Assembly: GCA_945867185.1 (NCBI GenBank)
Contig: CAMBHM010000019.1
Location: 1-13,158 of the forward strand
Source: Legionella genomosp. 1
Lineage (GTDB): Bacteria; Pseudomonadota; Gammaproteobacteria; Legionellales; Legionellaceae
DNA length: 13,158 bases
Direction of reading: 5' to 3'
Part shown: positions 1 to 13,158 of the stretch, piece after piece
Layout: every line of letters starts with the position of its first letter
How positions within the stretch are numbered: the first letter of the stretch is position 1
The notes under the pieces: generated by a model
What the model was told of the DNA's origin: nothing
The model's input: only the letters and a program-made list of their open reading frames with translations
The model's database searches: none
Translations under genes and position numbers: made by a program

Positions 1-721
1 TATCCACGGAGGTTGTTTTTTCATTCAACCCCAGTATTTTTTGCACTTCTTCTAGGGGCTTATCTAGCATGTCAGCGATTTCTTCTGGACTCGGCTCATG
101 ATCTAAGGTCTGCGTGAGCTGACGCGCTGCTCTTAAGTATACATTCAACTCTTTAACCACATGAATTGGCAATCGAATGGTTCTCGTTTGGTTCATGATG
201 GCCCGCTCTATGGTTTGACGGATCCACCACGTTGCATAGGTCGAAAATCGAAAGCCCCGATCGGGATCAAATTTTTCTACGGATTTCATCAAACCTAAGT
301 TGCCTTCTTCTATCAAATCCAACAAAGGCAACCCACGATTGAGATAGCGTCGTGAGATTTTTACCACCAAGCGCAGATTAGACTCAATCATTTTTTTACG
401 AGAGGCCCCGTCTCCTTGCAAGGCGAGTCTTGAGTAATGCACTTCTTCCTCAGCACTCAGCAATGGAGAAAAGCCAATTTCTCCGAGATACAATTGCGTG
501 GCATCCATCACCTTTTCTAGATGCTTGCCCTTTTGATAAGAGGGAAACGCGGTCTTATCAGAAAAATCATGCGGGCTCAAATCCTCTAGCTCGACTTTTT
601 GAAGCACTTCACTGAGATCAAGGGCATTTTCCCCTTCCAGCTCAACCGGCTCATCCTCCGCAGATAGGACATCCTGTTCTGTCTCTAACGCATCATCCTT
701 TTGCTCTTCGTGTGGGCACAT
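1..721 (-). CDS. rpoS: RNA polymerase sigma factor RpoS (3' end cut off by window edge)
   Basis: This is the stationary-phase/general stress sigma factor, which binds core RNA polymerase and directs it to stress promoters. The 240 complete codons present cover an acidic N-terminal tail (about 1-70), the region 1.2 signature [16 protein letters not shown] (73-88), and a strongly conserved region 2 with [31 protein letters not shown] and [18 protein letters not shown]. Region 3 begins with [15 protein letters not shown]. The end of region 3 and all of region 4 lie beyond position 1. The start is the ATG at 719-721: an in-frame TGA lies 6 nt upstream, and AGGTGAG sits just before it as a ribosome binding site. 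It is the last gene of a surE-nlpD-rpoS cluster, 54 nt after nlpD. RpoS rather than RpoD is chosen because of the short N-terminus, the region 1.2 wording and the nlpD neighbour. Confidence 0.97.
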
Positions 722-7230: not shown

Positions 7231-7659
7231 GTGTTAAAAAATAAAATATTGGTTGTTTGGTCAAATTATTACACCGATCTGGCAACACAACAACTAGACC
7301 ATTGCTTACACCTTCTAAATCAAGCAGGATATCAGCACACTGTAGAAAGGGTTGAGGCTGGTACCTATGAAATACCAGCCGTCATACAACAGTATCATCA
7401 ACATCACCCCTACGATGGCTATCTGCCATTGGGTTTACTGCTAAAGGGTAGTACCGATCATTATGAATTCATTCTGGACCATCTAAAAGCCTGCTTTACA
7501 ACCCTTACGCTAGATGGCCTATTAATTGGTAACGGTATCATTTCAGCCCCAAACCTAGACTGTCTCACCGAGCGGGTCAACCATCATGAACGGACCAAGG
7601 AAGCCATTCGAGCCCTGAGATATTTAATAGGTTTAAAAGAAAAAATCAAACGATCCTAA
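7231..7659 (+). CDS. divergent lumazine synthase (RibH) family protein
   Basis: A 142-aa protein that follows the layout of 6,7-dimethyl-8-ribityllumazine synthase, the penultimate riboflavin enzyme, but is diverged. The N-terminal strand and loop ILVVWSNYY correspond to the RFN substrate loop; VEAGTYEIP (41-49) matches the VPGAYELP loop; LPLGLLLKGSTDHYEFI (65-81) matches the GTVIRGGTAHFEYV region and keeps the catalytic His (His77). ERVNHHERTKEA replaces the ERAGTKAGNKG phosphate-binding helix, so the Gly-rich part is lost. No upstream ATG is available; the GTG at 7231 is the likely start, with only a weak GAG signal upstream. The isolated position away from other rib genes and the altered substrate loops suggest a paralog, perhaps active on a different substrate or purely structural. 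It might instead be a catalytically competent RibH2-like enzyme. Family confidence is moderate to good; function is open. Confidence 0.72.
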   Translation: MLKNKILVVWSNYYTDLATQQLDHCLHLLNQAGYQHTVERVEAGTYEIPAVIQQYHQHHPYDGYLPLGLLLKGSTDHYEFILDHLKACFTTLTLDGLLIGNGIISAPNLDCLTERVNHHERTKEAIRALRYLIGLKEKIKRS

Positions 7660-7723: not shown

Positions 7724-10483
7724 ATGCCGATTGGTGCAGCTGTTGATAAAAGCAAAGAAATGAATCTGGATTGGCTTCGTTATAAAGCATCGTGCTTGAT
7801 GATCAGTGATCATTATTTCAAATTGGGCATCGTGGTGGCTATCACGGATGAGCTACTTGAAAAACAACATGAAGTCGATTTGGCAGCACGATTTTCTCAT
7901 CAGTTTTTTTATTTTCAAGACAGGATGTTTCGCTTAAATACCCGTGATGAACGCATGGGATTTTCTTTGAATTTAAAGACACATGCTCAGACGTCTTTGC
8001 AGTTATTACACTTGATGCTTTCCATCCCTCAAGAAGCGGGTGAACCTGAGATATGCGTTCGAAATAGAAATCGTCAAGAAGAAATTTTTTGGCCAGCCCC
8101 TCTTAGTGAAACGGAAGCACCTTACCTTTACCCTTGGACTTCTCAAAAAGGGCCTATGCCCTCAAAGCTCGCATTTCAAACCTATGTGACGGCAGGCGAG
8201 GTATTTGGTTGGAGTTTAGAGGGCATGATAGCTGAATCTGAGGTTCGTGTGCCGATGATGAAGTGCGACATGCTGGACGAAACACAAATCATCACTCGTA
8301 TCGTTTCACTTCGCGAGCGCCCGCTCTATGAAGTCTTTTTATTGAAAAGTTTTTGGCAATTTACGGCTTTTTTGGAAAGTTCTTCAGCCACTGAAGAAAT
8401 CGTAGAACTCATCTATCATTTACCTTACTACGATTATATGTTGTTTGGTGTTGGGCTGTTTCTATCCAATAAAATAACTTTACCGGCTTTAGGTTCTTTT
8501 TTTAAGTGTATTCTTGATAAACGCATAGAATATACGGGGCATCTTCATGGCATTCTGGTAGCTTCTAAATTGAAACTCAAATTAAATTGCACCATTGAGA
8601 GCCCCTTTGCGAACATGTTTGGCCCCATTGAATGCCTTTTGGAAAGAGTGCATTGGGATGATCGAAGAGCCGATATGTCCGAGTTCGCCATGGCCATTCT
8701 TTCATATCTTCATATTCCAAGTAGCCTCCATAGAAAGGGGCCTGCTATTCACGAGCGGGATTTCGTCGTGAGCTGTAAGAAAAGATTGCTAGAGGGATAT
8801 GATCCGACTGAAAAGAACCCATTTTACCGTGCATTGCATCATGCTTGGTCTGATGCGCCACTTGATGATATCAACACCTTAGCAGATCTCTTGAAGCTTG
8901 GTGCAAGTCTTATGATTGCTGCGAGTGCGCATGGCAAACAAGGGGTGAGGATCTGTTCGTGGTTGCCCATATCGGAGCAAGAGAAGGCCGTGAAGTATGA
9001 TAGATGCCGTGAGTCTCTGAATCGGGGGTGCAGGGGCGAAACTCTGGAAGAAAAGCCATACCCATCTATTATGAATGTGGTATTGCTTGAGCCTGCCGTA
9101 TATTCCCCGGCGAATCCTATGGGCCATTTGTATCGTTTTAGAGAGTCCTGTCGGGTTCATTTTGTAAAACTTGTGGACAAAGGATTATTAGACGTCGCCA
9201 TGGTCAATGCATTGGATTTTTCAGAGGGAAAAAAGCACCCTACTCCATTAAAAGAGGCCTTTTTCTCGACAGCATCTGTTAGCGCGTTGGGTTTTTTTGG
9301 TCATCCAGAGACCCCCAGAAGGCCGTCCGATCATGCTTTAAATTCCGTCACACAAAGCCGGTTAAAAAAGATTCCCTTTATAGATTTTTGCACGTTTTTC
9401 CCATGGATTTCATCAGAGAGTAGGACAATGCCTCATGACATGAGCTCAAAAGATAAAGTACGCTTCCTTTTACAGAGTTCAAAGAAAGAAGTTCTTGTTT
9501 CTATGTGCTTTAAATCTCCAAATGAATTCAATCACCCGCAGTTGAGTGACTCATCGGATGACGCGCTACAATATCAACTCCTAACGGCTACGTTTCATGC
9601 GGGACATATCAGCGCCATGCGTTTCATAAGAAATGCAAAACATGCCAAAAATGCAGCGATCACCTTCGATGCTACCCCTTCGCTTCTCTCCATGAGCTTA
9701 ACCATGCTGGCAATGCTTCCTGAGGAATATTCTTGTAGAGTGGTTCTTCTTCGTGACATTTTAAAGACCGCTAAAGAATTGGTTTCAGAGACCCTTGTTC
9801 AGCTGATACGAGATCACTATTTGACCTTTGAAGAAGCGAACGAATTGATTCAAGAGCTTTTGCAAGCCACTTCTCAATTAACGCCTTTTATTAATCAATT
9901 TTTCCCAGACGAAGCATCTCTATTGACCCGCCAATTTATTAAATTTTTAACTTTAGCTTTAGAGCGCAATCTTGGAAAAAGTGCAGCTGCCCTCAACGTG
10001 ATTTATGAAGTTGAGTTTTTGAGTGCAACGAGCCTCCTGGAAATGATAAAGAAATGGCCTAAGTATCATTGGCGAACAGTCCTCGTGTCGATGTTGATTC
10101 AATATCCTGATAACCTGAGTAAATATCTTTTGCTCATGGAAATGGCTGAATTTGATCAAGAGTCCCTCTTTCATGATGCAGACGCTTTTCTCGACACTTA
10201 TGATGATTTATCCCCTGACTATAGAGCATGGATCATTGAAAATGAAATCCGACCTTTAAAAGAGTATGTAGTCACTGCGCGCAATTTATCAGCTGATGAA
10301 TTGCTCGTGTTGCAGTATTATTTTATGGATAGAAAAGACCTTTCACTGGCTCATCTCGAAATGGAAGCAATTCGCTACCTAGGTCAGGATCTTATCAATA
10401 AATCCATCATCGATTGGGTGGAATTAGAACACTGCGAAGAGATTCCAAAATTAGAATCAGAGCGTCATACCTTGGGATTCTAG
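7724..10483 (+). CDS. 919-aa orphan protein, effector-like
   Basis: A very large protein I do not recognise. It has no signal peptide and no convincing transmembrane segment, so it is cytoplasmic or exported by a non-Sec route. The sequence is mostly helix-forming. Aromatic-rich stretches occur near the N-terminus (FSHQFFYFQDRMFRL) and around 220-260 (LIYHLPYYDYMLFGVGLF). Two places look faintly ankyrin-like (LADLLKLGASLMIAASAHG and LLTATFHAGHISAMRFIRN) but no proper array can be laid out. The C-terminus is Glu-rich (ELEHCEEIPKLESE) and ends TLGF, with a hydrophobic residue at -3: the pattern described for E-block/Dot-Icm type IV substrates. That is inference. The ATG at 7724 has GAGA about 7 nt upstream; 64 nt separate it from the RibH-like gene. 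Codon choice and composition look broadly like the flanking genes. Other possibilities are a structural or toxin-like orphan. The gene is intact over its whole length, which argues for selection. Confidence 0.85.
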   Translation: MPIGAAVDKSKEMNLDWLRYKASCLMISDHYFKLGIVVAITDELLEKQHEVDLAARFSHQFFYFQDRMFRLNTRDERMGFSLNLKTHAQTSLQLLHLMLSIPQEAGEPEICVRNRNRQEEIFWPAPLSETEAPYLYPWTSQKGPMPSKLAFQTYVTAGEVFGWSLEGMIAESEVRVPMMKCDMLDETQIITRIVSLRERPLYEVFLLKSFWQFTAFLESSSATEEIVELIYHLPYYDYMLFGVGLFLSNKITLPALGSFFKCILDKRIEYTGHLHGILVASKLKLKLNCTIESPFANMFGPIECLLERVHWDDRRADMSEFAMAILSYLHIPSSLHRKGPAIHERDFVVSCKKRLLEGYDPTEKNPFYRALHHAWSDAPLDDINTLADLLKLGASLMIAASAHGKQGVRICSWLPISEQEKAVKYDRCRESLNRGCRGETLEEKPYPSIMNVVLLEPAVYSPANPMGHLYRFRESCRVHFVKLVDKGLLDVAMVNALDFSEGKKHPTPLKEAFFSTASVSALGFFGHPETPRRPSDHALNSVTQSRLKKIPFIDFCTFFPWISSESRTMPHDMSSKDKVRFLLQSSKKEVLVSMCFKSPNEFNHPQLSDSSDDALQYQLLTATFHAGHISAMRFIRNAKHAKNAAITFDATPSLLSMSLTMLAMLPEEYSCRVVLLRDILKTAKELVSETLVQLIRDHYLTFEEANELIQELLQATSQLTPFINQFFPDEASLLTRQFIKFLTLALERNLGKSAAALNVIYEVEFLSATSLLEMIKKWPKYHWRTVLVSMLIQYPDNLSKYLLLMEMAEFDQESLFHDADAFLDTYDDLSPDYRAWIIENEIRPLKEYVVTARNLSADELLVLQYYFMDRKDLSLAHLEMEAIRYLGQDLINKSIIDWVELEHCEEIPKLESERHTLGF

Positions 10484-10857: not shown

Positions 10858-13158
10858 ATGGCCGAAGACCATGCTGAGTCGACGCCAGTTGACTGGAACG
10901 AAAAACTGATTGAGATAGGACTGGAGACTAAGTGGTTGTCACTCATGACAACAGACCTCGAACGTAAGAAAGTGTATCGATTATTAAAAAATCATATATC
11001 CACACGTTTAAGGCTTCCTGATTCAGATCGATCTGGCTTGTCTATGGATGCGTTACAAATCAAACATGCCTGGCAAATAGAAATATTGGCTGGGACGACA
11101 TCAATAAGGGATTACTCATGGGACTCATGGAAGATCTTTAGAACTACTCATGATTCGAGAGGAGCAACCCCTGTCCATTATCTCGCTTGGGCCGGTAATC
11201 TGAGAGAATTACGGTGGATGCTAGATGACGTTATGTATCAAAACTTTCTCATCTTTTACGACTATCAAGGTCGTGGTATTGAGACGTACGCGGCTTGGTC
11301 AGGCGATGATGATTTTTATAAGACTCTAACCAAAAATAAAGACCTATCAAAACGTAAGTCAGAGCTTTTGGATCAGCAGGGTCGATCAGAGAATTTACAC
11401 AAGATCATTTCAGATTGTAAATTAGAGTGGAGCGATGAAGAGTGTCGCGCACTGACTGAGCAAAAAGAAGTAGATAAGGCTGGCCGAAGTGCTTATTATT
11501 ACGCTATTTGGACAAGAAATAACTTACTGTTTAAAAAACTTCTAGCGGTTCGATTCGATGACAATATAGATAATACCTTTAACCTTAAAAAGCCTGGGGT
11601 ACCTACGTATTATGGTTCTTATGGTTCTCATTATTACCTAATGGGCGTTGACTTCGATGGTAGAGAAAAAAAGACCCTCGCTCACTACGCCGCATGGTTA
11701 GGTAATGTAGAGGCTTTAGAGGCACTAAGAGTAAAAAAGTATAGGTTCTTCGAAACGCCTGATGAAGAGACTGATGATACTATCGCTCACTACGCAGCAC
11801 GCTCAGGAAACCTTGATACCTTGAAATGGGTACATCAATATTATCCAGAATTGTTCGAAAGAGCGTTCGATAGATTCCTGGGCTTTAGGGGCCTCACTCA
11901 ATGCGCTAAAGCATCGAAAAATCCAGAGGTCGTAGCCTGGATGAGTAACTATAAAATAGTTCAAGAACGCATCAAAGCGATGATCTCGGGTGCCGAGAAG
12001 TTGTTAGGTGAGCTCAACTGGAAAGAGACGTTTTCAAGGGAATTTCCCAGTGTCGATCCCCATGTCATCCAGTGCGCTCAGAATCGTATAGAGACAGCCG
12101 TGAATACAGTCATCACAAAACGTGCGGATGCTTGGATTGATGAGGTGAAAAAGCAATTAGATAAACCAACGTGGAGAGATACGTTTAGGGCGCAGTGTCT
12201 TGGTGCGAGTTCAACGGTAGTAGCGAGAGAGCTCTTGAGGATAGAGACAGCATTCAACATTGCTTCTCATGAAATGGTTGCTAAAGCTGGAAAAAAATTG
12301 CAAGGCATGCGCGTTGGGGAGAGGTATGGTCAGGGCACGGAGGCTTTTTTAGCACAATTTAGCGCAGTTGATAAGGTCATCGTAGACAGAGAACTCTATA
12401 GAATAACACAGGCTCAGGGTGATCTTGCCCTTGTAACCCCTGAGAGCCCTCGTCATCAGTTGGTTAAGATAGGCGTAGACAATACACTGCTGTGTCAATC
12501 TGTCCTGAAGGAGGAAGACTTTGAAAGAATCCATAGACTACTGAAGAATCATACGTCCGATGCGTTAACGTTGACAGCGCATCCCGATATACCTGAGACG
12601 CTCAGGCTATCGATTCACAAGTTAAAGATCGAGGCAGTTTGGCAACTGAATGCGCTTGCAGGAACAGAAGGGAACCTTGACCCTACAAAGGAAGATAACA
12701 GAGGGGCTAATATTGCACACTACGCTGCGTGGTCTGGTAATATAGCGGCGTTAGAGTGGATTAAAACCACTCATCCAGCGCTTCTAAAAGCTGATAAATT
12801 TGGTGATAATCTCTATTATTATGCCTGCTATTCGAACAATAAGGAGACCTATGACTGGATCCAAAGGAACTGCGCTAATATAAGATACTATAGGGGCTCT
12901 GGACAAGTCCCTGCTGTGATTTCAGGTAATCAAACGATTCTTGACTGGATAATGAGCGACACTCAAGAGCTTGAGATTGCCTTATCTGATTATTGTCGAG
13001 ACTCTCTTCCTTTGATCTATTTTGTCGTTTGGGTAAAAAACAATGTCTTCCTTAACACCTTAATACAGGCCTATAAAGAGAAAGCAACTCCAGCGGGAAA
13101 TCAGCGATCACCGCTGTCGAATCTAACCCCAATAAGAAGGTACACCGTTGACGACAAG
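10858..13158 (+). CDS. large ankyrin-repeat protein with duplicated helical modules (3' end beyond window)
   Basis: The frame is open for 767 codons to the last base of the window, with no stop. AAAGGTGTG precedes the ATG at 10858. There is no signal peptide. Layout: helical module 1 (about 13-81); ankyrin-type units with the unusual core (A/V)HYxAWxGN at about 102-121, 137-157, 207-229, 267-290 and 306-325; a weaker unit 344-361; two tandem copies of a 51-residue helical repeat (388-438 and 439-489); then a second helical module (about 532-604) resembling module 1; and more ankyrin units (613-636, 646-668 and following). Ankyrin proteins bind other proteins; in Legionellales many are type IV effectors acting in the host. 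That role is inferred from the kind of protein and its neighbours, not shown. The secretion signal, if any, would be at the missing C-terminus. No catalytic motif is visible in the part present. Confidence 0.88.
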   Translation, partial: MAEDHAESTPVDWNEKLIEIGLETKWLSLMTTDLERKKVYRLLKNHISTRLRLPDSDRSGLSMDALQIKHAWQIEILAGTTSIRDYSWDSWKIFRTTHDSRGATPVHYLAWAGNLRELRWMLDDVMYQNFLIFYDYQGRGIETYAAWSGDDDFYKTLTKNKDLSKRKSELLDQQGRSENLHKIISDCKLEWSDEECRALTEQKEVDKAGRSAYYYAIWTRNNLLFKKLLAVRFDDNIDNTFNLKKPGVPTYYGSYGSHYYLMGVDFDGREKKTLAHYAAWLGNVEALEALRVKKYRFFETPDEETDDTIAHYAARSGNLDTLKWVHQYYPELFERAFDRFLGFRGLTQCAKASKNPEVVAWMSNYKIVQERIKAMISGAEKLLGELNWKETFSREFPSVDPHVIQCAQNRIETAVNTVITKRADAWIDEVKKQLDKPTWRDTFRAQCLGASSTVVARELLRIETAFNIASHEMVAKAGKKLQGMRVGERYGQGTEAFLAQFSAVDKVIVDRELYRITQAQGDLALVTPESPRHQLVKIGVDNTLLCQSVLKEEDFERIHRLLKNHTSDALTLTAHPDIPETLRLSIHKLKIEAVWQLNALAGTEGNLDPTKEDNRGANIAHYAAWSGNIAALEWIKTTHPALLKADKFGDNLYYYACYSNNKETYDWIQRNCANIRYYRGSGQVPAVISGNQTILDWIMSDTQELEIALSDYCRDSLPLIYFVVWVKNNVFLNTLIQAYKEKATPAGNQRSPLSNLTPIRRYTVDDK
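10894..11100 (+). repeat. duplicated helical module, copy 1 (residues 13-81 of the ankyrin protein)
   Basis: The module runs LIEIG (17-21), RLLKNH (41-46), LSMDALQIKHAWQ (61-73) and ILAGT (76-80). Copy 2 at 12451-12669 has LVKIG, RLLKNH, LSIHKLKIEAVWQ and ALAGT in the same order, with a 1-residue and a 4-residue shift. Both copies are followed directly by ankyrin units. Confidence 0.75.
11010..11027. repeat. 18-bp exact repeat, copy 2 (inside the ankyrin gene)
   Basis: AAGGCTTCCTGATTCAGA, identical to 7680-7697. Here it is coding and yields the residues LRLPDSD of helical module 1. It is in the less conserved linker part of that module, so the identity with the intergenic copy is not explained by protein conservation. 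Confidence 0.6.
12019..12324 (+). repeat. two tandem copies of a 51-residue helical repeat
   Basis: Copies cover residues 388-438 and 439-489 (12019-12171 and 12172-12324). They share W[KR][ED]TF at the start and RIETAxN exactly 22 residues after the Trp, with no gap needed (W388/R410 and W439/R461). Patches of DNA identity remain, such as ATAGAGACAGC. A shorter ERIKA segment at 370-374 may be the worn remains of an earlier copy. The repeat does not have the ankyrin pattern. Confidence 0.65.
12451..12669 (+). repeat. duplicated helical module, copy 2 (residues 532-604 of the ankyrin protein)
   Basis: Second copy of the module at 10894-11100. The anchor segments are LVKIG (535-539), RLLKNH (560-565), LSIHKLKIEAVWQ (584-596) and LAGT (600-603). 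The DNA has diverged (the LLKNH codons differ at wobble positions), so the duplication is old and kept at protein level. Confidence 0.75.

Follow-up and report, generated by a model that had tools for sequence, protein, structure and literature searches.

In the draft genome of Legionella genomosp. 1 (G000; 1,445,997 bases, 207 contigs, 75.99% complete), contig CAMBHM010000019.1 (C19) ends in an open reading frame (ORF) for an ankyrin-repeat protein, and within this protein we found two copies of a conserved start module that is unnamed in the databases tested (Pfam, NCBIfam and PHROGs). The window, i.e., the whole stretch of DNA analyzed, is this entire contig of 13,158 bases. The module recurs before ankyrin units at the N-terminus of other Legionellaceae proteins, and it is probably an N-terminal capping element of this group of ankyrin proteins, doubled in the window protein by duplication or fusion. 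Because the ORF meets no stop before the contig end, the C-terminus of the window protein is not visible. The protein and its two module copies are arranged as follows:

10858..13158, + strand: ankyrin-repeat protein, 767 codons visible, 3' end past the contig (ORF; Pfam Ank_2 E 9e-16)
10885..11100, + strand: module copy 1, residues 10-81, with three helices, a disordered loop and the WQ helix (profile E 1.7e-15, model includes copy 1; predicted structure)
11038..11097, + strand: LS-x3-L-x-I-x3-WQ-x3-LAGT motif of copy 1, residues 61-80 (read directly)
12436..12669, + strand: module copy 2, residues 527-604 (profile E 3.9e-17, model includes copy 2; predicted structure)
12607..12666, + strand: LS-x3-L-x-I-x3-WQ-x3-LAGT motif of copy 2, residues 584-603 (read directly)

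The window protein scored 58.7 bits with Ank_2 (cut-off 27.3) and 40.8 bits with Ank_4 (cut-off 22.7), which identifies it as an ankyrin-repeat protein, and the Pfam scan gave no family besides ankyrin above its cut-off. The module spans about 75 residues and its copies start 517 residues apart. The original prediction had proposed that a helical module of about 70 residues occurs twice, and the motifs that it quoted, RLLKNH and LS-x3-L-x-I-x3-WQ-x3-LAGT, are indeed present in both copies; the repeated module of that length holds, but the stretch includes a variable loop. When residues 1-97 were aligned locally with residues 520-612 after removal of ankyrin residues, the score was 103, against a mean of 26.2 (standard deviation 4.9) and a maximum of 55 in 2000 shuffles, so the expected similarity between the copies is significant; by this comparison the two copies are homologous. 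Identical residues fill 33 of the 75 aligned positions, with the same codon at 12 of them and the same third base at 16, which indicates, as had been suggested, that the protein was kept and that this is not recent DNA identity. Copy 1 shares 37% identity with copy 2 in a 12-row alignment (A2), against 23-31% with the other ten rows. A profile of five relatives, built with the window left out, found copy 1 at E 3.2e-6 and copy 2 as two pieces at 5.1e-7 and 5.7e-6 (single-sequence search), which places both copies in the Legionellaceae module-ankyrin group. The conserved module positions are L36, W69 and Q70 (alignment A7), and the loop from RLLKNH to LS...WQ is longer in both window copies than in the 18 other sequences of a 20-row alignment.

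To describe the distribution of the module, a profile was built from 22 module copies. The search with this profile, of the kind that the original prediction had called for, found carriers beyond the window gene: 33 rows from 18 of the 143 Legionellaceae genomes, covering 7 of 33 genera. Twenty-two of these rows had gone into the model; the four weakest of the other 11 have E values of 9.6e-8 to 6.9e-5. An earlier profile gave 30 rows in 17/143 genomes, but two of the rows (L048 and L051) were false positives in frames that we take to be UvrD/AddA-like helicases, and both are absent from the results of the 22-copy profile. The order-level search drew the same 143 genomes as the family-level search, and a class-level sample of 369 genomes held just two with a match, G000 and G007, which both belong to the Legionellaceae. 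Carriers known by name are Legionella sp. W10-070, L. erythra and L. waltersii (34 stretches fit the pattern, 3 confirmed). In a large protein search with the window protein (P0001), one protein passed the threshold, Legionella P0002, with the module at its N-terminus. The plasmid search returned no module carrier, and the three pattern matches in viral contigs included no relative. Two module copies in one open frame were seen in the window genome alone among the 18 carriers, so the idea of a two-block design as a general family feature has to be given up.

Among the 33 rows are 31 relatives, 30 of which were examined; the 79-amino-acid (aa) frame G154:C38 was collapsed, and L099 is a cut duplicate of copy 2. 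An ankyrin-like unit follows the module in all 30, with an H-Y/F core in 27 and a changed core in three (L031, L032 and L036), and Ank_2 and Ank_4 each match 27/30 at E <= 0.01. In the window protein the succession of module and HYAAW-type units is as predicted for copy 2 (HYAAW at residue 621), but for copy 1 the spacer is longer and the unit that follows is HYLAW, at residue 107. The module starts at or before residue 48 of the stop-to-stop frame in 29/30 relatives. The exception is L036 of G007, with the module at residue 209 of a frame of 299 codons, in a series of ankyrin ORFs interrupted by frame breaks. In L052 (G007:C34:18500-24000) of that genome, the module lies within a run of ankyrin ORFs in differing frames that looks like a decayed gene, and the last ORF of the run ends in a TnpB-like zinc-ribbon stretch.

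Many relatives also share a conserved C-terminal region. A profile of it, built from 14 relatives, matched 26/30 relatives at E <= 1e-3, and 24 of these reached 44.9 bits or more, whereas the window protein scored 0.2 bits over its visible 767 residues, its true C-terminus lying past the contig end. At least 24/30 relatives (e.g., L034:1453-3144:+) show the motif ALxTNYSLT...LP followed by an LPxxIL-like motif. By eye only, the region resembles a leucine-rich repeat end and an F-box, and no Pfam model matched it consistently.

Searches with module-only sequences gave no convincing match in Pfam (12 members, best E 0.027), PHROGs (22 members, best 0.044) or NCBIfam (22 members, best 0.12). Against the PDB, three RecA fusion chains (best E 6.3e-7) were judged spurious, since these hits depended entirely on an 18-position stretch that recurs in tandem fusions, and the module profile otherwise reached sulfotransferases at E 1.2. 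A module-plus-ankyrin profile matched DARPins and AnkX in the PDB through its ankyrin end. Foldseek with the block-2 model returned nothing at E <= 0.001 (best 9.7e-3).

Predicted models of both copies show, at low confidence, three helices, a disordered loop and the WQ helix, in the same order in both copies, though the two models shared alignment rows. In the copy-2 model the WQ helix sits in the first ankyrin slot; with its WQ end within the ankyrin fold, the module looks like a cap repeat and not like a separate domain. We infer the cap packing and the helix order from these models. If the module is a cap, its constant position at the array start and the WQ end in the first slot would both be explained. 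Three short helices would lead through a variable loop to a WQ helix that replaces the first helix of the array, and the module would thereby shield the stack of ankyrin repeats at its hydrophobic end and set where it begins. A usual member would carry a single module at the protein start, then the array, then the conserved C-terminal region, while in the window protein a single chain would hold two cap-plus-array blocks, joined by a three-fold helical linker. The earlier proposal of an undescribed domain that caps or introduces ankyrin arrays stands as to its position before ankyrin units in the 30 relatives and the lack of a Pfam, NCBIfam or PHROGs match, but the copy-2 model favors a cap repeat over a separate domain.

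Several observations weigh against this interpretation. The models are weak overall, with mean predicted local distance difference test (pLDDT) values of 56.9 and 65.7, predicted template modeling (pTM) scores of 0.45 and 0.50, and alignments of five rows, and the agreement of their helix order is not independent because they share alignment rows. The module has no sequence-profile similarity to ankyrin repeats, which leaves the model as the basis of the cap reading, and the ankyrin matches of the block-1 model mostly start at residue 172 and provide no test of copy 1. As to the doubling, a 20-row tree pairs copy 1 with G047 (97/91; G047 has a long branch), next to copy 2, and the likeness of the blocks past the module and first ankyrin unit does not exceed that of two unrelated ankyrin stretches. 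As to export, DotI and DotH gave no match in G000 at its 75.99% completeness, compared with matches in 20/21 and 19/21 other sampled Legionellaceae; one absent contig could explain the lack of both, because dotI and dotH lie close together where both matched.

Could the module instead be a separate functional domain, used for binding, dimerisation or targeting and tethered before ankyrin arrays? Its profile is unlike that of ankyrin repeats, the three helices before the WQ helix have good local confidence in copy 1 (blocks 11-40, pLDDT 88-91), and in both copies a disordered loop lies between these helices and the WQ helix. We nevertheless consider this explanation unlikely, given the ankyrin-like units directly after the module in every relative examined, the single relative, in a frame-broken gene, with a module away from the N-terminus, and the position of the copy-2 WQ helix in an ankyrin slot. 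Even less credible is a strongly diverged ankyrin repeat pair, with nothing but ankyrin repeats present: some structure matches do reach back to the third helix (1mx4_A, model 182..307; 4o60_A, 185..316; 7roy_B, 184..313), but module-only members match no ankyrin model, hhalign against 23 tandem ankyrin pairs gave a probability of 0.2% (run without a positive control), and the module has a conservation of its own, at the three positions named above. A meaningless accident of fresh tandem duplication or assembly, which the uniqueness of the two-copy frame among carriers and the incomplete, 207-contig draft might suggest, is very improbable, since 42/75 aligned residues differ, 21/33 identical residues use different codons, the frame is open across 767 codons and a repeat region of 150 residues lies between the copies.

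The trees favor internal duplication as the probable origin of the two blocks, with fusion of two related genes as the less likely course. A 20-row tree in which the two copies are constrained together is 4.24 log units worse, which does not suffice to reject it (p-AU 0.081), and in a tree without G047 they pair at 89/83. A block duplication reaching far past the module was rejected: residues 122-240 against 641-750 scored 47 (5/1000 shuffles), and an unrelated-ankyrin control scored 43 (7/1000).

Among the host-directed proteins of Legionella, ankyrin proteins form a major class, in which database models see only the repeats. Ankyrin arrays bind proteins. The nearest likeness to the window protein is found in unnamed Legionella ankyrin proteins such as P0002 (Legionella sp. 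W10-070, 662 aa), in which the module is likewise followed by HYAAW-type units and whose annotation is just "ankyrin repeat domain-containing protein"; they differ in having one N-terminal module and, in 24/30, the C-terminal region. With the Dot/Icm ankyrin effectors AnkX (LegA8), AnkY (LegA9) and AnkF (LegA14), the common feature is Legionella-type ankyrin repeats. AnkX gave weak NCBIfam matches in 13/30 relatives and E 0.0033 for the window protein, but the latter reached 15.6 bits against a cut-off of 1400, within the ankyrin repeats only; none of the AnkX, AnkY and AnkF equivalog cut-offs was reached, and AnkY and AnkF were unlisted at E <= 1. The WQ helix and following units align structurally with designed and natural ankyrin N-caps (DARPins and p18INK4c), while the module adds three helices and a variable loop in front and has no sequence similarity to them. 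In the core effector AnkH, as described in PMC6712400, a distorted first ankyrin repeat serves as N-cap, a likeness in role to the window module. By that description, AnkH differs in that its ankyrin repeats run from residue 1 and in its protease-like middle domain.

Dot/Icm export of the module family is plausible, and the window protein may be secreted. Its two blocks and helical linker would offer two binding faces, a bivalent binding scaffold that, after export, would probably act on a eukaryotic host protein. A broader proposal is put forward tentatively: the module may be an undescribed, Legionellaceae-specific array-starting domain that, with the unnamed C-terminal region, defines a three-part family with up to five paralogues per genome, in which the window protein would be the only two-block member seen, serving as a bivalent scaffold directed at the host, with a three-fold helical linker of its own. 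Genus-wide surveys of Legionella effector domains could already list the module. The start module and the shared C-terminal region offer a way to group Legionella ankyrin proteins into families, to set true domain borders for structure work and to trace duplication and fusion of ankyrin arrays.

The remaining features of the window protein are:

11149..11349, + strand: degenerate ankyrin units after copy 1, residues 98-164 (Ank_2 E 0.0058, below cut-off)
11635..11832, + strand: later block-1 ankyrin units, residues 260-325, HYAAW and HYAAR type (Pfam and Ank_2 matches)
11956..12447, + strand: three helical repeats of about 55 residues each between the blocks, residues 367-423, 424-477 and 478-530 (shuffle tests)
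12676..12861, + strand: ankyrin units after copy 2, residues 607-668 (Ank_2 E 0.0031, below cut-off; Ank_5 at residues 605-645)

The inter-block repeats scored 53 (first with second) and 40 (second with third), each reached by 0/1000 shuffles, and 31 (first with third; 13/1000), and the third extends four residues into copy 2. The repeat region (residues 367-530) had no match in the other 142 of the 143 Legionellaceae genomes searched.

Across the 1.45 Mb genome, which gave no DotI or DotH match, Ank_2 has 26 rows at E <= 1, spread over 14 contigs. A PmrA-type box had 0 matches in the window, where chance alone would give 2.15, and a promoter scan was at chance level. Upstream of the ankyrin gene, positions 7231-7659 (+) encode a 142-aa divergent lumazine-synthase-like protein (PF00885, E 7.6e-17), and positions 7724-10483 (+) a 919-aa protein that matched nothing in Pfam or NCBIfam. 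The latter was considered as a partner of the ankyrin gene and rejected, as in G024, where it has a 62% orthologue, none of the 6 ORFs of at least 120 aa in the 12 kb examined is an ankyrin gene. The window genome also holds a 68% identical paralogue of the 919-aa protein, which is cut by the end of contig C71, and 8 further genomes of the 143 have N-terminal relatives.
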